DNA of 64,000 bases. It comes from Candidatus Gastranaerophilales bacterium. Lineage in GTDB: Bacteria > Cyanobacteriota > Vampirovibrionia > Gastranaerophilales > Gastranaerophilaceae. This document shows, piece after piece, positions 7,156 through 47,955 of this stretch; the stretch's first letter is position 1, and the number at the start of each line of letters is the position of its first letter. The notes below the pieces were generated by a model, which did no database searches, was not told where the DNA came from, and saw only the letters and a list, made by a program, of their open reading frames with translations. A program made the position numbers and the translations under genes. The stretch is taken from positions 1 to 64,000 of the forward strand of contig CALVBW010000014.1 in NCBI GenBank assembly GCA_944325945.1, given 5' to 3'.

Positions 7156-7281
7156 ATGATTAAAAAATATATGGAAAAGATTATTTTAAATATTAAAACG
7201 CCTGCAACCCTTGCCGCGACTAGCATTGAAATCGGGGGGGGTACCATACTTCAAGCATTAAGAGGCTTTTCCATAGAATAG
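7156..7281 (+). other. Short poly-G ORF, possible phase-variable or decayed locus
   Basis: From the ATG at 7156 a 41-codon frame runs through a tract of 8 G (7234-7241) and stops at 7281. The DNA before the tract (TTGAAATC then G8) resembles the leaders at 26308 and 19511, and the peptide context IEIGGG resembles LNIGGG and LKFGGG there. With 9 G the frame would instead stay open to about 7445. Neither frame joins the prepilin gene at 7488. The 7282-7487 stretch holds no gene I can support. It could be a relic of a poly-G prepilin leader or a non-coding transcript. Confidence 0.4.
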
Positions 7282-7487: not shown

Positions 7488-8243
7488 ATGACAAAAAGAT
7501 TTGGTTTTACTTTGGCAGAAGTATTGATCACATTAGGTATTATCGGTGTTGTAGCTGCCATGACAATTCCGACATTGATTTCCAATACAAACGGAGCACA
7601 GTTTAAGACAGCTTACAAAAAAGCATTGTCAACATTGAATCAGGCAGTATTGATGAATATTGCAATGGATGATACTGATTTTTCAGATTTAACGGCGGAT
7701 GCTGCTTCAGGAACAAATCCTACTACTGCTCGTCCATTATCTAGCATGTTATCAGAAAGATTACAGTCAGCAACTGATATTACAGAAAGTTATTTTAAAG
7801 AAGTAGGTACTGCAGCCGAAGATGATGCTAATGAAATTACAATTGATGCTATGGAATACAAAAAGACAGTAACTTGTACAGGCGCCGGTCAACCTACGGA
7901 AGCTGGAACATCGTGTACTGCACAGAATGTAGGTCAGGAAGTTGAAATTGATGCAAATATTGCTGCACCTACTAATAGTACCTGGAGAGTTTACTCATTT
8001 GCAGATGGTACAGCTTTTGCTTACGATATAACTGCTGCAGACTGCGATGCGATAAAAAATAATTGTGTAGGCTTTATTGATGTAAATGGTTCAACAGGTC
8101 CGAACACGCCGATTTCTTGTGCAGATGCTGCTAATGGCACTTGTACATCAGCAGAAATTACAGATATATTCCCTGTATTTTTCCACGGACAAACAGTAGA
8201 ACCTGCAAACGATTCAGCAAGAGCAGTATTATTCGGTAAATAA
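7488..8243 (+). CDS. Prepilin-like protein (type IV pilin/pseudopilin N-terminus), no poly-G
   Basis: 251 residues. The leader MTKRFG is followed by FTLAEVLITLGIIGVVAAM, the class III prepilin signal: prepilin peptidase would cut after Gly6 and the hydrophobic helix would anchor or polymerise the protein. The C-terminal domain is acidic and Ala/Thr-rich with four Cys, and carries FIDVNGSTGPNTP, a version of the D-x-N-G-x-x-x-P-N motif shared by the paralogues in this window. GAAAGG lies before the ATG. Unlike most of its paralogues the start needs no frameshift, so it should be constitutively translatable. Partner secretion genes are not in the window. Confidence 0.88.
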   Translation: MTKRFGFTLAEVLITLGIIGVVAAMTIPTLISNTNGAQFKTAYKKALSTLNQAVLMNIAMDDTDFSDLTADAASGTNPTTARPLSSMLSERLQSATDITESYFKEVGTAAEDDANEITIDAMEYKKTVTCTGAGQPTEAGTSCTAQNVGQEVEIDANIAAPTNSTWRVYSFADGTAFAYDITAADCDAIKNNCVGFIDVNGSTGPNTPISCADAANGTCTSAEITDIFPVFFHGQTVEPANDSARAVLFGK

Positions 8244-19510: not shown

Positions 19511-20613
19511 ATGAAAGATATAACTAATTTGAATATCGGGGGGGGGCGACTCCTCTAAGCCAGCGTGCTGCTGGACCCGTCCAACAGGAAGTTGGAGAAA
19601 ATTTAACGGGTCATGAAATTAACAAGGGTTTTGACGGTATATTCTGGGAAAAGTTACTAAGATACTATGGCACTAAGATACTAAGAAGTAACGGTCGGCA
19701 TTACAAACCCGACAGAAAATATACCGTCGGGTTAGTAAACCCGACTTACAAGAAATTCAAGAGATTTTACGCCGGTGCTCAGAATGACAAAAATATTTTC
19801 TTAGTGCCATACTGCCTTAGTAACTTAGTATCTTTAAAGAAAGCCGCCTTCACCTTAGCAGAGGTCTTAATCACCCTTGGCATAATCGGCGTTGTAGCAG
19901 CAATGACAATCCCGACAATTTCGCATAACATTCAGCAGGCAGTATTAAAAAATCAATTTAAAAAATTTTACAGTACATTCTGGCAGGCAGTAATAGGTAT
20001 ACAAACAAAAGAAGGGCGACCAATACAATGTTATTATTGGGCGAATGGTTATCCGGGTGATTGCAAGGCTGTTTGCGCGGAGCGTAATGAATACGGCAGT
20101 TGTTTAAAATGGCGCTGTGAAAATGGTGATAAATATCCTGATAATTATAATGGTCCAATGTCGGAATGCCATTCTTTTACAGAAGAGTTGTTTTCAAATA
20201 CATTAAAGACAACAAAAATATGTAAAGATAAGGCCTATGAACAAGGGTGTTTGCCTGAAGATTTCAGAGGTGCTGATATAGTTAGGTCAGAACAAAATCC
20301 TGATAAGGAACAAGATCCTAACGGAATATTTTCCGATTCAAAAATAAAAAATAATTATCCTGTATTTGTTCTTGCGGATGGGAGTTATGTTATTGCTTAT
20401 GGTAAATATCCTGTAGGCATGCCTGTTTTTGTAGCGGATATAAACGGACAAAAAGGACCAAATAAATGGGGATATGATTTATTTGCATTTCAAATTGAAG
20501 GAGATTTAAAAAATGGTATAACCAGATTAGATGAACAACATTATGCAACTGAAACTGGCGGAAAAAGATTTCAACAAATGTATAATGAAGCTTTCAATAT
20601 TAATGCACAATAA
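19511..20613 (+). CDS. Poly-G phase-variable prepilin-like gene 1 (OFF as sequenced)
   Basis: ATG 19511 follows AAGGAG. Through G9 (19538-19546) it reads MKDITNLNIGGGRLL and stops at 19558. The +1 frame is open from the tract (GATPLSQRAAGPVQQEVGEN) to the prepilin motif AAFTLAEVLITLGIIGVVA (Phe at 19849) and on to 20613. One extra G gives a 367-residue protein with a 113-residue leader. The mature part carries VADINGQKGPNKWGYDLF, the family C-terminal motif, and many Cys. An alternative start is the GTG at 19804 (15-residue leader), but it has no ribosome site. Leader DNA after about 19651 is a repeat element translated in frame. ON requires G10 (or G7/G13). Confidence 0.85.
19538..19546 (+). 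repeat. Poly-G tract, 9 G (prepilin locus 1)
   Basis: Nine consecutive G between ATC and CGACTCCTCT. Homopolymeric G tracts of this length are classic slipped-strand mutation sites. Length 9 leaves the prepilin out of frame. Confidence 0.9.
19651..19838. repeat. Inverted-repeat-ended element inside prepilin leader 1
   Basis: The left arm AGTTACTAAGATACTATGG (from 19652) and the right arm CTTAGTGCCATACTGCCTTAG (from 19800) are imperfect inverted copies. Between them is a GTCGGGTTAGTAAACCCGAC hairpin (19727-19746) and a TCAGAATGACA unit, both found intergenically elsewhere. It carries no stop in the prepilin frame. Similar elements lie at 24206-24404 and 34144-34474. Confidence 0.7.
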
Positions 20614-24038: not shown

Positions 24039-24094
24039 TAATTTTATAAAAAAGAAGGAGAAATGCCATGAAAAAAAGTAAGCTTAGAAATGTC

Positions 24095-24103
24095 GGGGGG
24101 GGG
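24095..24103 (+). repeat. Poly-G tract, 9 G (prepilin locus 2)
   Basis: Nine G between GTC and CGACTCCTCT. The region from AAAAGAAGGAG through CTCTAGG is base-for-base the same as at locus 4 (33995-34003). Confidence 0.9.
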
Positions 24104-24205
24104 CGACTCCTCTAGGCCAGCGTGCTGCTGGACCCGTCCAACAGGAAGTTGGAGAAAATATATCGGGGCATGAAATTAGTAAGGGTTTTGACGGTATTGG
24201 TTTAG

Positions 24206-24404
24206 TAAAGATACTAAGATACTATGATACTAAGGCAGTAAGAAGTAACAGAAAAGTAGGTCGGTATTACTATGCCGACAGAAAATATACCGTCGGGTTA
24301 TTAAACCCGACCTACAAGAAACTCAAGAGATTCTTCGCCGGAGCTCAGAATTACAAAAATACTTTCTTAGTGCCATACTGCCTTAGTAACTTAGTATCTT
24401 TAAA
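24206..24404. repeat. Inverted-repeat-ended element inside prepilin leader 2
   Basis: Left arm AAGATACTAAGATACTATGA (from 24207), right arm CTTAGTGCCATACTGCCTTAG (from 24366). The interior has TCGGGTTATTAAACCCGACC and CTCAGAATTACA units. Open throughout in the prepilin frame. Confidence 0.7.
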
Positions 24405-25075
24405 AAAAGCCGCCTTCACTCTCGCTGAAGTCTTAATAACCCTTGGCATAATCGGCGTTGTAGCGGCAATGACCATTCCGACGCTCGTCGCGAATTATCA
24501 CAAGAAACAAATTCTTGTACAATTAAAAAATTCGTATTCTGTAGTGTCAAATGCAATACGACTTTCGGAAGTTGACAACGGTCCAATGTCAATATGGCCA
24601 ACAGGTAAGGAGATGGATATTAATGCATATTGGTTAAAGTATTTAAAGCCGTATTTTTCAAATCCAATATTATGTAAAAACGCAAGCGATTGTGGTTATG
24701 ATAACAGCTTTGATAACGTGAAATGGAGCTGCGGCAGCCATTGGGATGTAAAGACGAGTGAAACAAGATTGCTCTTCATGTTGAAAAATGGTACAGTAGT
24801 ATTTTTACCTAAAAATACAAACGACGCTGATGGTAGACCAATGTAGGCTGTTGAAGTGTATATTGATGTTAATGGCGCAGCTTCGCCAAATGAATGCGGA
24901 AAAGATGTATTTTTGTTTGCAAGAACAGACAAGGGAATTGTACCGTTTTCGGCTCCGGGCAAAGATTGTTGGACATCTTCGGAGTTTTGCGCGGACACTA
25001 TTATGAAAAGCGGCTGGGAATATCCAGAGAATTATCCGTATTAAAACAATCATTTAGGTTTGTAATTTTGCGTGT

Positions 25076-26307: not shown

Positions 26308-27065
26308 ATGTTAAGTAGTTTGAAATTCGGGGGGGGGCGACTCCTCTAGGTAGACAGGACAAGGGTTTTACGCTTGCCGAAGTTTTGATTACACTCGGCA
26401 TTATAGGCGTGGTGGCTGCCATGACGATTCCCACGCTTGTGCAGTCGTTTAAAAAGAAAGAAGTAGAAACAAAGTTAGTAAGATTTAATTCAATAATTAA
26501 TCAAGCAATTCAACTTGCGGATGTTGAACAGGGCTCACATGCTTGGGCTAAAGATACATATGTTTTTGCAGCTCCTGATGATCCGGTTGTTAATACGTCT
26601 CAGGATACTGTAAACTGGTTTAATACATATCTTGCACCTCATTTGAAAGCTACGTGCAATGAAGATACTATATCCGGCGGCAGTGGCGGCAGGGAGTTTC
26701 TTATTTGTACAATGAATAACGGTGATAAGTTTGGAATTGATTACGGCTCAAACAGAGAATGGATATATTTTATAGGAGATCCGGAAAAATGTCTTAAAAA
26801 AGAAAATTATGCAGGATCTTGCGGATTTTATTTTTTGTTTAGAATGAATGATGTTCAGGCTGGTAATGAAGGTTGGAAGTATCATGTAAATACGCCTTTT
26901 GCACCCTATATGTACAATTGGGATGGCGAGATTGAAACATTAAAAACGGATTCGACATTCGGTTGTAATGATTCCACTGAAACTGAAAATTCGGGTAGAT
27001 ATTGCACGGCATTAATCCAGCAAAACAACTGGAAAGTGCCGGAAGATTATACTTTTAAATTCTAA
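26308..27065 (+). CDS. Poly-G phase-variable prepilin-like gene 3 (OFF as sequenced, canonical leader)
   Basis: AAGGAGG precedes ATG 26308. With G9 (26329-26337) it reads MLSSLKFGGGRLL and stops at 26349. The +1 frame gives GATPLGRQDKG then FTLAEVLITLGIIGVVAAM with no interruption, so a G10 tract yields a 252-residue prepilin with a perfect 20-residue leader and the usual Gly just before Phe. This is the cleanest case: no repeat is inserted, and nothing except the tract prevents expression. The mature domain has paired Cys and ends CTALIQQNNWKVPEDY, matching the C-termini of loci 2 and 4. It follows fabD by 22 nt. Confidence 0.88.
26329..26337 (+). repeat. Poly-G tract, 9 G (prepilin locus 3)
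   Basis: Nine G between TTC and CGACTCCTCTAGG. Adding one G fuses the SD-led ATG to the prepilin frame. Confidence 0.9.
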
Positions 27066-33967: not shown

Positions 33968-35181
33968 ATGAAAAAAAGTAAGCTTAGAAATGTCGGGGGG
34001 GGGCGACTCCTCTAGGTAGTTGTAGCAAGGGTTTTGATAGTCAAGCAGGGGGAATGTGTCTTTTCGACGACGCTCTCACCTCCGGCTCCGCTATAGTCTC
34101 AAAGACACATTCCCCTTGCTCTCAATCATGTGACTTTTTGGAAAAGATACTAAGATACTATGATACTAAGGCAGTAAGAGGTAACAGTCGGATTAGTAAA
34201 TCCGACCTACAATATGTCATCCTGAACTGCCTGAGGCAGGACAACACACTGAACATTGGTGGGACTTACGATGTCATTCTGAACTTGTTTCAGAATCTCA
34301 AAAAAATTCCCCGCACCCTAACCCTCCCACCTTCACTACGTTCCGGAAACAGGGTCGCACAACTCGTACCTCGTTGGCTCCCTTTGTTCCTCAAGGGCGG
34401 GAGGGAAGAATTAGTGAACGAAGCTCACAGTAAACACTTAGTGCCTTACTGTCTTAGTAACTTAGTATCTTCTAAAAAAGCCGCCTTCACCCTCGCTGAA
34501 GTCTTGATAACCCTTGGCATAATCGGCGTTGTGGCAGCAATGACAATTCCGACATTGATTAGTAATTATGAGAAAAAATTTACATCAACTGGAGTGAGAA
34601 ATTTTCATTCACTTATGGCACAGGCATATCAGCTCTCTATGGTGGAGAATGGTAATATGGAAACGTGGAGTTTTCCGTTAAATAAATCTGATAAAGAACA
34701 GGCAAAGCAATTTTTTGACAAATATTTTAGTCCATATTTGCATGTTTTGAATGAGTGCAGTGATGAAGATAGTATTCAGGAAAAATTTACAAATGCAAGA
34801 ACTAGTCCTGTATATACTTTAAAAAACGGAATGCAGTTTGTATTTATACCAAATGCTGCTGATAATGATTATGAAGGGAAATACGTTTATTTAATTCTTG
34901 ATATAAATGGAAACAAAGGACCAAACAGGGATGGCAGAGATATATTTTATTTGGATATTTTCCCTAATAACGGTATTGTGTGGGTTGGACGGGTTTCTGT
35001 TTCGGATGAAATAAATTCTGTAACACGGGATGATCTAATTAACGGTGTTTTGATTAATGAAGGTGAAGATACGGCGTGTTGTACAAATCAGACCTGCGCA
35101 ACTCCACGATATCAATATTACGCTTGCGGAGCATTAATCCAATTTGACGGCTGGCAGATTAAAGAGGATTATCCCTGGTAA
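33968..35181 (+). CDS. Poly-G phase-variable prepilin-like gene 4 (OFF as sequenced, longest leader)
   Basis: Same 5' end as locus 2: MKKSKLRNVGGGRLL with G9 (33995-34003), stop at 34015. The +1 frame is open from GATPLGSCSKGFDSQ without a stop to AAFTLAEVLITLGIIGVVA (Phe at 34486) and on to 35181. G10 would give 404 residues with a 173-residue leader made largely of translated repeats (VILNLFQNLKK, CLRQDN, KILRYYDTKAV). An internal ATG at 34054 could start a truncated-leader form but lacks a ribosome site. The mature part carries LILDINGNKGPNRDGRDIFY and ends YACGALIQFDGWQIKEDYPW. It overlaps the convergent nagZ by 13 nt. Confidence 0.83.
33995..34003 (+). repeat. Poly-G tract, 9 G (prepilin locus 4)
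   Basis: Nine G between GTC and CGACTCCTCTAGG, in a block identical to locus 2. Out of frame by one base. Confidence 0.9.
34144..34474. repeat. Composite repeat element inside prepilin leader 4
   Basis: Left arm AAGATACTAAGATACTATGA (34145 on), right arm CTTAGTGCCTTACTGTCTTAG (34437 on). Inside are TCGGATTAGTAAATCCGACC (34192-34211), GTCATCCTGAACTGCCTGAG, GTCATTCTGAACTTGTTTCA and an inverted CCCTAACCCTCCCACC unit. The whole stretch reads through in the prepilin frame. Confidence 0.7.
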
Positions 35182-36917: not shown

Positions 36918-36946
36918 TTGACACCCCGATTTGCTTTGGTTAGAAT
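36918..36946 (+). promoter_or_regulatory. Promoter of the cobalamin uptake operon
   Basis: TTGACA (36918-36923), 17 nt, TAGAAT (36941-36946). The transcript would start near 36953, leaving a leader of about 168 nt that holds the riboswitch. Confidence 0.8.
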
Positions 36947-36952
36947 AAAAAA

Positions 36953-37120
36953 AGAATTAAGGAAAGCTGGGTGAAAATCCCTCACCGGTCCGCGGCCGTT
37001 ACAGTCGGAATGCTTAATATTGTTAGCCTCGAGACAGGAGTATTGTGATGATAAAATTTATTAGCAGGAATATTCCCTTCGATAATTATAAAATGTTCAA
37101 ATTTTAGTGAAGGGAAAGAG
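36953..37120 (+). promoter_or_regulatory. Cobalamin riboswitch with a Shine-Dalgarno-sequestering hairpin
   Basis: GGTGAAAATCC (36970-36980) with CTCACCGGTCCGCGGCCGTTAC matches the conserved core of B12 riboswitches, and AGCCTCGAGACAGGAG (37025-37040) resembles the B12 box. Downstream, TTCCCTTC (37073-37080) is complementary to GAAGGGAA (37109-37116), the ribosome binding site of the receptor gene. This is a plausible translational expression platform. The genes that follow encode a complete B12-type uptake route, which supports the call. Confidence 0.85.
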
Positions 37121-39145
37121 ATGAAATTAAAAAATCTTATTTTACTTGCTTTATTTGTATTTAATCCGGCAGTTGTGTTTGCAATACAGGATAGCAGCAG
37201 TCCGTTATTATACGGCGGATTGACGGAAAAAGAAGTATATTCACTCGGAAATTATGCTGAAGATATACAAACTGCAGGGGCAAGTGTTGATGTAATAACT
37301 TTGGATGATATAAAAAATCAAGGGTCTCCGGTTCTTTCACAATTATTAAATCAGGCAGCGGGTTTGACTGTTCAAACTGAATCTTCAATCGGATCACCTT
37401 CGTCAATCAGAATGCGCGGTACTGACAGAGTAAGATTTACTCTTGACGGCATAAGAATGGACAGACCTTCCATGACAAGCCCGGGCATGGATTTGCAGTA
37501 TCTTTTAAGTGATGATCTGGAGAGAATTGAAGTAATACGCGGTCCTCAAGGTAATGTCGGCGGTGTTAATGCATCCGGCGGACTTATTGCTCTGCAAACA
37601 AGACGCGGCAGGGGACCTTTGTCTATTGAGATGGGCTCTGAAATGGGAAGTTATAGTACTTTTAAAGAAAGATTTGCCGTTATGGGCGGTGATGAAAAAA
37701 AAGATTTTTATATGGGCTTAACCTGGTTAAAATCCGCCGGAGGTATGGATACATCTAATCTTGGACGTATTTATAACAATGGTTATAATAATTTGAGTGT
37801 CGTTACAAATACAGGTGTCAGAGTTTTGGGTGGAAAAGCTGAAATCAGAGATATTTTCAGATTTTCACGCGCAAGAAAAGATATAGGTATTGGTTTTCAT
37901 AATGATTGGCCGTATGGTATTTATCAGGCTCCGGACGGTAATTACGGGACAAATACTGATGTAATGAATGTTTTGTCTTTTGACCATACCCCGAATGAAG
38001 TTTACAATTACAATACAAAGTTTGGCATATATCACAATCAGTCGAATAATTATATTTTCCCTGACCATATCAATTCTGATCCCACCATGGAATCTTTTTC
38101 CAGAATTGGCAGCACCAGATTGAACTTTATGACACAGCATAATTTAAATTATCATGACTGGAATACTTTTTCTGTTGGTTATAATTTGGAGACGGAATTT
38201 ATTGACAGTAAATCCTCAACAATAAATTTTGGTATGCAAGATATAAATAATTTTACCGGAAGTACTATTCAAAATGATGTTTTTGTTAATGACTCTATAA
38301 ATATTAAAGATAAACTGTTTATCAGAGGCGGTGCCAGATTGGTAAATAATTCGGCATATGGAACATACGTTCTTCCGAATGCTTCTGCTGCATTGGTTCT
38401 ACCGACTTTTAAAATCGCAGGTGCAAAAACGAAGTTCAGGGGTTCATGGGGACAGAGTGTGAATACGCCTACTTTGTATCAAAGATTTGCAAGGATGCGT
38501 CTTATGGGATATGATATGATTCCTAATCCAAATCTTGAGGCGGAAAAAATGACAGGTTGGGATGTCGGTATTGAACAAAGCTTTTTTGATGACAAATTGA
38601 AATTTGATTTCGGATATTTCAATAACGATTACAGAGATTATATAAATTTTGAATACGGTGTTGCAAGTTATATGTACACAAACATTGACAGCGCACGTAT
38701 TCAGGGTTATGAAGCCCGTATGACCTGGACTCCTAATGAAAAATTTAAAACTGTGGTAAACTATACATATACGGATTCTGAAGACAAAACAACAGGCATG
38801 GATCTTGCAGCTTGTCCGCAAAACAGGTTAAATACAACTCTTTATTGGACTCCGCATGCAAAATTTAATACTTTTGTTAGTGTTGAGGCAGCCTCAAGCA
38901 GGGCAATGAGTTCTGCAGCGAATGCCGTCAGAACTCCCGGATATGTTGATGTCAGAATAGGTGCAAATGTGGAATTGTTCAGCATAAAAGATGCTCATGT
39001 TTACTTAAAAGCGATGATTTATAACTTATTAGATCAGAGAATTTCTATGTACAGAAGCGGTGATGTTCAATATTACGCACCGGGAATACAATTTATGGCA
39101 GGTATATTTGTTAAATATAATCTGCCGGAGAAAGAAAATATATGA
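37121..39145 (+). CDS. TonB-dependent outer-membrane receptor (BtuB-like)
   Basis: 674 residues. Signal peptide MKLKNLILLALFVFNPAVVFA. Plug domain about 50-165 (VDVITLDDIKNQGSPVLSQL, SIRMRGTDRVRFTLDGIRMD, LERIEVIRGPQGNVGGVNAS, GGLIALQTR), then a 22-strand-type beta barrel (RGSWGQSVNTPTLYQRFARM, NYTYTDSEDK, VDVRIGANVE). The substrate is inferred as cobalamin from the riboswitch and the downstream BtuCDF-like genes. No TonB/ExbBD in the window. It overlaps the permease gene by 4 nt (ATGA). Confidence 0.93.
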   Translation: MKLKNLILLALFVFNPAVVFAIQDSSSPLLYGGLTEKEVYSLGNYAEDIQTAGASVDVITLDDIKNQGSPVLSQLLNQAAGLTVQTESSIGSPSSIRMRGTDRVRFTLDGIRMDRPSMTSPGMDLQYLLSDDLERIEVIRGPQGNVGGVNASGGLIALQTRRGRGPLSIEMGSEMGSYSTFKERFAVMGGDEKKDFYMGLTWLKSAGGMDTSNLGRIYNNGYNNLSVVTNTGVRVLGGKAEIRDIFRFSRARKDIGIGFHNDWPYGIYQAPDGNYGTNTDVMNVLSFDHTPNEVYNYNTKFGIYHNQSNNYIFPDHINSDPTMESFSRIGSTRLNFMTQHNLNYHDWNTFSVGYNLETEFIDSKSSTINFGMQDINNFTGSTIQNDVFVNDSINIKDKLFIRGGARLVNNSAYGTYVLPNASAALVLPTFKIAGAKTKFRGSWGQSVNTPTLYQRFARMRLMGYDMIPNPNLEAEKMTGWDVGIEQSFFDDKLKFDFGYFNNDYRDYINFEYGVASYMYTNIDSARIQGYEARMTWTPNEKFKTVVNYTYTDSEDKTTGMDLAACPQNRLNTTLYWTPHAKFNTFVSVEAASSRAMSSAANAVRTPGYVDVRIGANVELFSIKDAHVYLKAMIYNLLDQRISMYRSGDVQYYAPGIQFMAGIFVKYNLPEKENI

Positions 39146-44947: not shown

Positions 44948-46024
44948 TTAATCAACCGGATCACCAATATTATAGTCTACTACGGTATTAAGCTTTCCGG
45001 TTCTGACTACACTATGCAAGTCACCTTCCCAGGCGGAATTATGTGAGTAGGTATTATCTTTGCGAACTTCAAGTTGAAAAATATCTCTGCCAACCTGATT
45101 TGGTTTGTTTTTGCCGTTTGTATCTATCAATATAGATGCACAATGTATTCTGTGTGATTGATAAGTTACAGGATTACCTTCTTCGTCTTTTACTACAACA
45201 CCATTTTCGTATTTGGTATATGTATCTATTCTATCGCAGTTGTCATATTGTTTAACACCTATTAAAATCCCGTCCATAGTCAAAAATCTTGGCCAGGTGT
45301 ACATACCAGCACCTGAATAAGTTTCGCCGTCAGAAGACATAGGTTTTGTCGTTTTGTATGTATAGTTCTTACAACTGCCGCTGGCAGTATTGACGCAAAT
45401 TTCCTGAACTTTAAAATATTTAGCAAAAGCTCTCATGGATTCTTCGCTGGTGTTATTAGTATTAAACAAAACAGAAGTATCTCCGTAGCCATTTTCAGCC
45501 CGTGCAAGATCTATAGCGTTATTAACTTGAGCTAACGCCTTTTTAGCGCGTGTAACGAGTTCTTTTTCCTGATAATTACTAATCAATGTCGGGATTGTCA
45601 TAGCGGCAACAACGCCGATTATGCCGAGGGTGATTAAGACTTCTGCCAGAGTAAACGCGACTTTTTTAGAAGATACTAAGTTACTAAGGCAGTAAGGCAT
45701 TAAGAATTTACTGTGAGCTTCGATCACGTTTTTATTTTCCGAACTATAATTCTTCATATTAGAATTATAATTTGTTTTATGTATTGTGTCAATTATTTTA
45801 GCAACTTGTAGGTCATGTTTACTAACCCGACTGTAAATTTTTCTGTCGGCTTGGTAAAGCCGACCTACTATTAATTTGTCATCTTCGTTCACATATTTGT
45901 CATTCCGAACTAGTTTCGGAATCTCTTTATTATGAGATGCTGAAACTAGTTCAGCATGACCGGAGGTTAAGCTACTGCCCCCCCCCCTGCGTGAAAAGTA
46001 GTCGTGATGCGTGTTTGCGTCCAT
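44948..46024 (-). CDS. Poly-G phase-variable prepilin-like gene 5 (ON as sequenced)
   Basis: 358 residues from ATG 46024 with GGAG 7 nt upstream. It reads MDANTHHDYFSRRGGGSSLT straight through a 10-G tract (45978-45987 as C on plus) and continues to AFTLAEVLITLGIIGVVAAM (Phe is residue 124). With 9 G it would end RGGAVA-stop, with 11 G RGGGQ-stop, so only 10 (or 7, 13) is ON. The 123-residue leader holds translated repeats (GHAELVSASHNKEIPKLVRN and MPYCLSNLVSSKK). The C-terminal domain carries ILIDTNGKNKPNQVGRDIFQ. An internal ATG at 45700 could also start a 14-15-residue leader but has no ribosome site. Confidence 0.87.
   Translation of the reverse strand: MDANTHHDYFSRRGGGSSLTSGHAELVSASHNKEIPKLVRNDKYVNEDDKLIVGRLYQADRKIYSRVSKHDLQVAKIIDTIHKTNYNSNMKNYSSENKNVIEAHSKFLMPYCLSNLVSSKKVAFTLAEVLITLGIIGVVAAMTIPTLISNYQEKELVTRAKKALAQVNNAIDLARAENGYGDTSVLFNTNNTSEESMRAFAKYFKVQEICVNTASGSCKNYTYKTTKPMSSDGETYSGAGMYTWPRFLTMDGILIGVKQYDNCDRIDTYTKYENGVVVKDEEGNPVTYQSHRIHCASILIDTNGKNKPNQVGRDIFQLEVRKDNTYSHNSAWEGDLHSVVRTGKLNTVVDYNIGDPVD
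45668..45970. repeat. Translated dispersed repeats inside prepilin leader 5
   Basis: From the 3' side: arm AGATACTAAGTTACTAAGGC (45671 on), TGTGAGCTTCGATCAC, a GTCGG...CCGAC unit (about 45810-45870), and GTCATTCCGAACTAGTTTCG with its inverted partner GAAACTAGTTCAGCATGAC (45899-45961). All are also found between genes elsewhere in the window, yet the minus-strand frame passes through them without a stop. Confidence 0.65.
45978..45987 (-). repeat. Poly-G tract, 10 G (prepilin locus 5, in frame)
   Basis: Ten C on the plus strand, i.e. ten G in the coding strand, between CACGCA and CAGTAGC. It is the only tract of length 10 in the window and the only one whose gene is in frame. Confidence 0.92.
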
Positions 46025-46052
46025 TTTAATCTCCAATAATTCTATATCTGTT

Positions 46053-46081
46053 ATTATATCAATTTATTCAGGGTTAGTCAA
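46053..46081 (-). promoter_or_regulatory. Promoter of poly-G prepilin locus 5
   Basis: On the minus strand TTGACT (46081-46076), 17 nt, TATAAT (46058-46053), about 29 nt before the ATG. It overlaps the last codons of cysE. Confidence 0.75.
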
Positions 46082-46733
46082 TGCAGAGTTTTTGAAGCTT
46101 TTCTTTAAGTTCCTGAACTTCATATTTAAGCCTGTTAAGTTCGCATCTGACGGGGTCTGGAATTCTGTTGTGCATTAAAACACCGTTTTTGTCACGGATT
46201 TTGCGATGCACAATTCTTCCAGGGATACCTACGACCGTTGAATATTCCGGAACATCTTCCACAACAACGGAACCTGCTCCGACTCTTACATAATCTCCGA
46301 TGGAAATGTTGCCTAAAATTTTTGCGCCTGCGCCGACTATAACGTTATTTCCCAAACTCGGATGGCGCTTGCCGTGTTCTTTACCCGTGCCGCCAAGTGT
46401 TACCTGCTGGTAAATTAATACGTCATCGCCTATGGTGGTTGTTTCGCCGATTACAACACCTTCTCCGTGGTCTATAAAAAATCTTCTGCCGATTTTTGCT
46501 CCTGGATGGATTTCAATACCTGTTATAATTCTTGTGATATAAGAGATTATTCTCGGTATTAAAGGAATATGCCATTTGTATAATCTGTGTGCAAATCTGT
46601 AGGCAATAAGCGCATGAAGCCCCGGATAGCACAACAAAACTTCCAAAATATTTCTTGCTGCAGGGTCTTTGTCGTAAATTACCTGTATATCTTCTTTTAC
46701 TTTTATTATTCCGCGTTTTAAGAGTTTGAACAT
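46074..46733 (-). CDS. cysE: Serine O-acetyltransferase CysE
   Basis: 219 residues. Acetylates serine to O-acetylserine for cysteine synthesis. The C-terminal left-handed beta-helix of hexapeptide repeats starts at [20 protein letters not shown], continues [40 protein letters not shown] and [20 protein letters not shown], and ends in a short basic tail. The start at MFKLLKRGI lies 1 nt past the tyrS stop, so translation is coupled. An earlier in-frame ATG sits inside tyrS. Confidence 0.93.
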
Positions 46734-46734
46734 T

Positions 46735-47955
46735 TTATTTAACCAGTTTGGCAAATTTTCTTTTACCTGCCTGCAATATTACACTTTCATCAAAGTTCAG
46801 GGTATAAGCCATATCGGTAATCTTTTCACCGTTAATTTTTACCCCGCCGCCTTGAATTAAGCGTTTTGCTTCACCTTTTGACTGTACAAAGTTAAGCTCA
46901 ACCAACAAGTCCAAAATCCCTTTGCCGTTTTCTGTTTTAACTTCGGGGATGTCTTCCGGAATTCCTTTATTGGAAACCACATTTATAAATTCTGTCTGAG
47001 CATGGTCTGCGCCTTCTTTGCCGTGGTATTCTTCCGTAATCATATAGGCGAGTTTAAGTTTTAGATCACGCGGGTTGACCTCAGGATTTTTCAGGCTTTC
47101 TTCAATATTTTTAAGCTCAGTATCGGAAACGTCTGTTAAAAGCGTAAAGTATTTAAGTATTAATGTATCAGGAATACTCATTAATTTGCCGAACATATCT
47201 TTTGCACTGTCAGTCAGTGAAATACAATGTTCCGGATATGTTTTTGACATCTTAACCAGTCCGTCAGTACCTTCAATTAAAGGCAAAAGCATAACCATTT
47301 GTGGGTATTTTTTGCCGTAAGCTTCTTGAATCTGGCGTCCCAAAAGGGTATTGAATCTCTGGTCTGTTCCGCCGAGCTCAATATCCGCGTCAATTACAAC
47401 GGAATCGTATGCCTGCATAAGCGGATAGAAAAATTCATGAACTGAAATCGGTCTGCCTTCCGCATAACGTTTTGCAAAATCGTCGCGGGTCATCATCTGC
47501 GCAACCGTCATTTGGGCAGCGAGTTTCAAAAGATCCGTAAAACTCATTTTGTGGAGCCAGTCAGCATTATTTACAACTTCGGCTTTTTCAACGTCAACAA
47601 CTTTTGACATCTGTTCAAAATAAGATTTGGCATTCTCTTCAACCTGTTCTTTTGTCAATGAAGGTCTTGTTTCGGATTTTCCTGAAGGGTCTCCGACCAT
47701 TGCCGTTGCACCGCCAACGACTAAAACAACTTTGTGACCGAGTTTTTGAAACTCTCTTAATTTCCGCATTACAACGGTATGCCCGAGATGCAAATCAGGT
47801 CTTGTCGGATCCATACCGAGTTTTACCCTCAAAGGTGTATTTGTATCTTTTGCATGCTGTAATTTTACAGCTAATTCTTCAATTCCGCCGGGTAAAATCT
47901 CTGCCCCGCGTGATAATTTTTTTGCCTGTTCTATAAATTCTTCTCTTATTTCCAT
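46735..47955 (-). CDS. tyrS: Tyrosyl-tRNA synthetase TyrS
   Basis: 406 residues. Class I synthetase. [20 protein letters not shown] holds the HIGH motif, [13 protein letters not shown] the KMSKS loop, [20 protein letters not shown] the tRNA/Tyr-binding part, and the end ([20 protein letters not shown]) is an S4 RNA-binding domain. This is the TyrZ-like longer type. Upstream of cysE in a two-gene unit. Confidence 0.95.

Follow-up and report, generated by a model that had tools for sequence, protein, structure and literature searches.

The G10 tract at positions 45978-45987 of the window, the 64,000-nucleotide stretch of DNA analysed here, most probably makes a type IV pilin gene phase-variable at the translational level, by slipped-strand changes of the reading frame. 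This gene is one of at least 56 switchable genes of its kind in the genome. Judged from the sequence, the surface fibres of this bacterium are probably changed by random slippage of such G runs.

The pilin-like gene at position 45978

The locus is read from the minus strand and comprises the following features:

46053-46058, minus strand: TATAAT, a promoter -10-like element, read in the sequence
46022-46034, minus strand: SD sequence GGAG (46031-46034) and ATG start codon (46022-46024), read in the sequence
45978-45987, minus strand (C10 on the plus strand): G10 tract, in frame (ON)
45899-45960, minus strand: palindromic repeat, translated in frame (HAELVSASHNKEIPKLVRND); hairpin of -31.2 kcal/mol, z -6.0 for 45880-45966
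45806-45870, minus strand: second palindromic repeat, translated in frame; hairpin of -25.1 kcal/mol, z -5.6
45656-45977, minus strand: leader with an open pilin frame, about 107 codons long and partly made of palindromic repeats
44948-45655, minus strand: predicted mature pilin, from the F of FTLAEVLITLGIIGVVAAM to the stop codon (TIGR02532 frame search; structure model)

A serine acetyltransferase gene (46074-46754, minus strand) ends about 50 bases before the start codon, and ATTGATATAATAA is found also 5' of the orthologous switch in another species. With ten G, the reading from the ATG at 46024 begins with MDANTHHDYFSRRGGGSSLTS and continues through an ORF of 358 codons; the tract is thus real and in frame, as an earlier sequence-only reading had stated. 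Its translations of the neighbouring lengths proved exact: nine G yield ...RRGGAVA-stop and eleven G ...RRGGGQ-stop, both ending at most four codons on, and a single-base change of the tract decides between a full-length and a truncated product. That only length 10 works holds for single-base steps, since 8 and 12 G also lead to an immediate stop, but not beyond them, since the frame is open again at 7 and 13 G. The frame rule and these translations at 7-13 G support the proposed ON state and the frame-switch design of the locus. The stops close to the tract, which had been described as expected of a true switch, are present, but two nearby stops at a single locus are weak evidence, because in the window's ordinary genes both alternative frames are closed within five codons at 8.2% of codon positions, and within three codons at 2.2%. 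The tract itself is far beyond chance: a first-order Markov model predicts about 0.2 G/C runs of at least 8 bases per 64 kb, and six are observed in the window.

According to its sequence features, the gene encodes a predicted type IV pilin- or pseudopilin-like protein. The prepilin model TIGR02532 scores above its cut-off in the open frame (18.5 versus 16.3 bits in the genome frame search) and below it, at 15.1 bits, when the product is scanned as a leaderless mature protein. PF07963 matches weakly (14.5 versus a cut-off of 21.2), and the N-terminus resembles GspG and ComGE, with scores below the cut-offs of those models. An AlphaFold2 model (mean pLDDT 87) comprises an N-terminal helix of 55 residues (2-56) and a beta-rich head. 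A Foldseek comparison of this model with the PDB gave no significant match, and therefore no function is read from the fold; a search for relatives with the mature pilin found no named one. The leader of a type IV pilin is usually shorter than about 30 residues. Here the junction between leader and pilin reads KKVA/FTLAEVLITLGIIGVVAAMTIPTL, and about 120 residues precede FTLAEVL; since the leader is far longer than usual, the product is termed "pilin-like". The genome contains one match to the prepilin peptidase family PF01478 and four matches to the PilB/PilT-type assembly ATPase family PF00437.

A genome-wide set of poly-G and poly-C loci

The window harbours four further pilin-associated tracts, all of them out of frame:

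19538-19546, plus strand: family A tract G9 (OFF), followed by a pilin gene
24095-24103, plus strand: family A tract G9 (OFF)
26329-26337, plus strand: family A tract G9 (OFF) with the shortest leader; G10 would give MLSSLKFGGGATPLGRQDKG/FTLAEVL
33995-34003, plus strand: family A tract G9 (OFF); its leader is about 160 codons long

The flanks of the tract at 45978 are indeed unlike those of these four loci, as had been pointed out, and among the tract-bearing pilins of the window it is the only one in the ON state. The pilin that follows the 24095 tract (24094-24850) contains an in-frame TAG in its mature part and therefore may be a decaying gene. The mature pilin at 26361-27065 matches PF20318 (DUF6613) with an E value of 3.6e-22, a match implying that the DUF6613 family includes pilin-like proteins of this lineage. 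A pilin gene at 7488-8243, whose product has a canonical short leader, is preceded by a short ORF (MIKKYMEKIILNIKTPATLAATSIEIGGG...) that contains a G8 run at 7234-7241. This run was rejected as a switch of the 45978 kind, since the downstream pilin has its own ATG at 7488. A further copy of the left arm of the 45899-45960 repeat occurs at 34274, and an AdoCbl-II cobalamin riboswitch (Rfam RF01689) is located at 36942-37023, upstream of a 674-residue ORF at 37121.

In the genome (1.63 Mb, 32 contigs), tracts were located by a pattern search and the surrounding stretches were analysed. There are 65 G/C runs of at least 8 bases and 85 prepilin-type genes with TIGR02532 matches, 56 of which carry such a run just inside the ORF. 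Nine runs are not paired with such a gene, and seven of these are found no more than about 500 bases from the end of a contig. At least seven contigs (C9, C11, C13, C14, C20, C26 and C32; L028-L089) end directly behind the poly-G start of a pilin gene. The repeat-rich leaders have probably hampered assembly there, and more than 56 switch loci may in fact exist. Neither switch type is present in the viral contigs.

The earlier suggestion that the poly-G design is kept despite different flanks extends to dozens of loci and to three unrelated leader types, which share one layout. A promoter-like element, an SD sequence and an ATG lie upstream of the homopolymer, which sits about 13-16 codons into the ORF. 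In family A, the commonest, the ATG is followed by MKNKEFKNV-like codons, G9 and CGACTC(C/T)(C/T)CTA(G/A). Family B, which includes the locus at 45978, consists of MGANTHHDYFSL, A, G11 and CAGTAGCTTAACC, and family C carries a poly-C run on the coding strand (...AVQIVA, then C9). In all three, 10 is the length that usually gives ON; OFF tracts have 9 bases in two of them and 11 in one. About 90% of the switch loci of these types are OFF. Nearly all A loci of the genome are G9 (35 G9 versus two G10 among the pure tracts), C loci are C9 or, in two cases, C8, and every B locus but 45978 is one base too long. Clear ON loci besides 45978 are a minus-strand family A locus with G10 (L079) and a family A locus with an extra A upstream of G9 (L043). 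Two loci with doubtful start calls, owing to two ATGs near the SD sequence, were not used as evidence (L075, scored ON, and L088, scored OFF). A second ATG at -5, in frame at G8 or G11, occurs in many family A loci and was set aside, since it is not conserved.

Reading frame, tract length and rival explanations

The leaders between tract and pilin range from 7 to 195 codons across loci and differ from each other by large indels, yet they are open in one frame. Where the leader has 20 codons or more (129 loci), 2 stops per 10,553 codons occur in the pilin frame as against 924 and 1,124 in the other frames, and stops in the other two frames are present in the leader of every locus; 118 of 139 scored loci are, in the assemblies, out of frame with their own start, and since the scored loci are mutually related, none of these counts represents independent events. 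Open leaders at loci that are mostly out of frame suggest that the sequence downstream of the tract is translated in this frame at least sometimes.

Tract lengths vary between species assemblies, which is the level at which variation is seen here, rather than inside one population. A locus of the genome (C30:83827) and its counterpart in the assembly of a sister species (L168) do not differ over about 1.1 kb, in and around the gene, except for G9 versus G10A. Identical family B flanks (ACTACTTTTCACTCA...CAGTAGCTTAACC) enclose G10, G11 or G12 across genomes, and both G10 and G11 within one. The nearest relatives of the 5' end at 45978 are OFF and one base longer (G11 or AG10). A comparison with orthologues, which had been proposed as a check, speaks for the switch: at several loci, the reciprocal-best orthologue in a second species is in the opposite state, ON as against OFF. 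The site after the acetyltransferase gene cysE harbours, in one relative, a B switch with G10 and a different leader, in frame to the contig end; in further relatives it has a B-type G8 (one genome) or C runs (four), and none was seen in the rest. Among the 150 family A matches listed for the genus, 123 have G9, 16 G10, three G11, two G7 and one G8, and five are interrupted. Many genomes of this genus and of its family are rich in runs of 9 or more G, which are rare in the other families of the order. Three genomes from other genera of the family (G024, G029 and G018) contain even more such runs, about 90-115 each, often preceded by A and not by C.

Slipped-strand phase variation would account for these patterns as follows. 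During replication, a tract would gain or lose one G and thereby flip the lineage between OFF and ON; only lengths equal to 10 modulo 3 join the start to leader and pilin. ON cells would produce a prepilin with a long leader, the single prepilin peptidase would cut this leader off before FTLAEVL, and the released pilin would become part of a pilus or pseudopilus. With most copies a single base away from ON, any one cell would express a small and changing subset. A leader that is translated and then removed would tolerate repeat insertions but not stops, which would explain its anatomy.

Two observations count against phase variation in its simple form. In Campylobacter jejuni, the length of G9 and G10 tracts shifts at a rate of about 1e-3 per division (PMC8224891). 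The family A lengths are more uniform than such rates predict; moreover, family B sits at 11, whereas A and C sit at 9. Slippage drift alone is insufficient to account for lengths in which G9 is so dominant and family B prefers 11; selection favouring OFF, or a mutation bias that depends on context, must act as well.

The main rival is programmed slippage at the RNA level, by which the usual "OFF" length would be functional because RNA polymerase or the ribosome slips on the tract and thereby yields a minority of in-frame product, and the G10 loci would be constitutive exceptions. This would fit the open leaders of mostly out-of-frame loci, as well as the strong preference for one OFF frame within each leader family, to which several interrupted tracts also conform (AAG10, GGAG8, G8A). 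However, families A and C need one base more and B one base less, which does not agree with a single ribosomal shift; tract length and ON/OFF state differ between orthologues, and relatives carry short tracts locked ON (G7, C6, C7). As the whole explanation RNA-level slippage is therefore unlikely, but it could add leaky expression to phase variation.

It is very improbable that the OFF copies are a silent archive that feeds a few expressed pilins by recombination, the tract merely keeping them quiet. An archive would suit the many, mostly OFF paralogues, the A, B or C leaders found on relatives of a given mature pilin, and the cysE site with its B or C switch depending on the species. Yet every examined copy has its own SD sequence and start, most look complete, and silent donors would not need open leaders. 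We give equally little credence to an assembly or consensus artefact, for although the assembly is probably metagenome-derived, homopolymers are error-prone and several contigs end in switch loci, the same tracts recur with a sharp mode in numerous genomes that were assembled independently, the frame is preserved in interrupted tracts, and the syntenic locus of another species is also G10.

Returning to phase variation, the set may tentatively be described as a default-OFF repertoire one base from ON, in which lengths are kept by selection (or used by leaky RNA-level slippage) and not determined by mutation bias, few of the at least 56 pilins are made per cell and the 5' switch is exchangeable; we regard this fuller account as possible rather than probable.

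Relation to known switches and biological meaning

In Neisseria, promoterless and partial pilS copies act on pilE by gene conversion. The present set would likewise form a large reserve of pilin variants of which few are expressed, but unlike pilS each examined copy has its own SD sequence, start and frame switch. Rickettsia palindromic elements are palindromic repeats that lie in frame inside coding sequences; compared by description, the in-frame palindromes reported here are similar, but they reside in a prepilin leader, which should be cut off. Neisseria pilC, which encodes the tip adhesin PilC, undergoes poly-G phase variation. Poly-G switching has also been described for the sortase pili of Bifidobacterium (PMC9187656). 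Both systems resemble ours in that the length of a 5'-end poly-G tract turns a pilus gene ON or OFF. They involve one or two genes, with other pilus classes and proteins, whereas a large family of prepilin-type subunits is concerned here.

A further close parallel is the poly-G/C phasome of C. jejuni, where intragenic G/C runs of 7-13 bases, mostly 9 and 10, set the frame of surface-related genes (PMC6321876, PMC8224891); in Campylobacter genomes, 9G and 10G account for 52% and 30% of the tracts, respectively (PMC6321876). A C. jejuni genome possesses about 20 such loci, the majority being sugar or surface-modification genes, as opposed to at least 56 loci in one pilin-like superfamily here, and the skew towards OFF is much stronger in the present set.

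In the literature searched, a scope that left most subscription papers outside, there was no report of phase variation for Gastranaerophilales or Melainabacteria. Poly-G switching of pili is known in kind, while its scale, host lineage and leader anatomy appear to be unreported. What appears new here is how many members of a single family are switchable in a genome of 1.6 Mb, together with the ON length of 10 common to three leaders of unrelated sequence, the nearly uniform OFF state and prepilin leaders filled with repeats. The findings point to an unusually dense set of poly-G switches in a single gene family of the Gastranaerophilales, which are common in the gut but have hardly been cultured. 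Such switches would account for the ease with which these pilin genes are mis-annotated, either as truncated or with false internal starts, and they predict that surface fibres vary from cell to cell.
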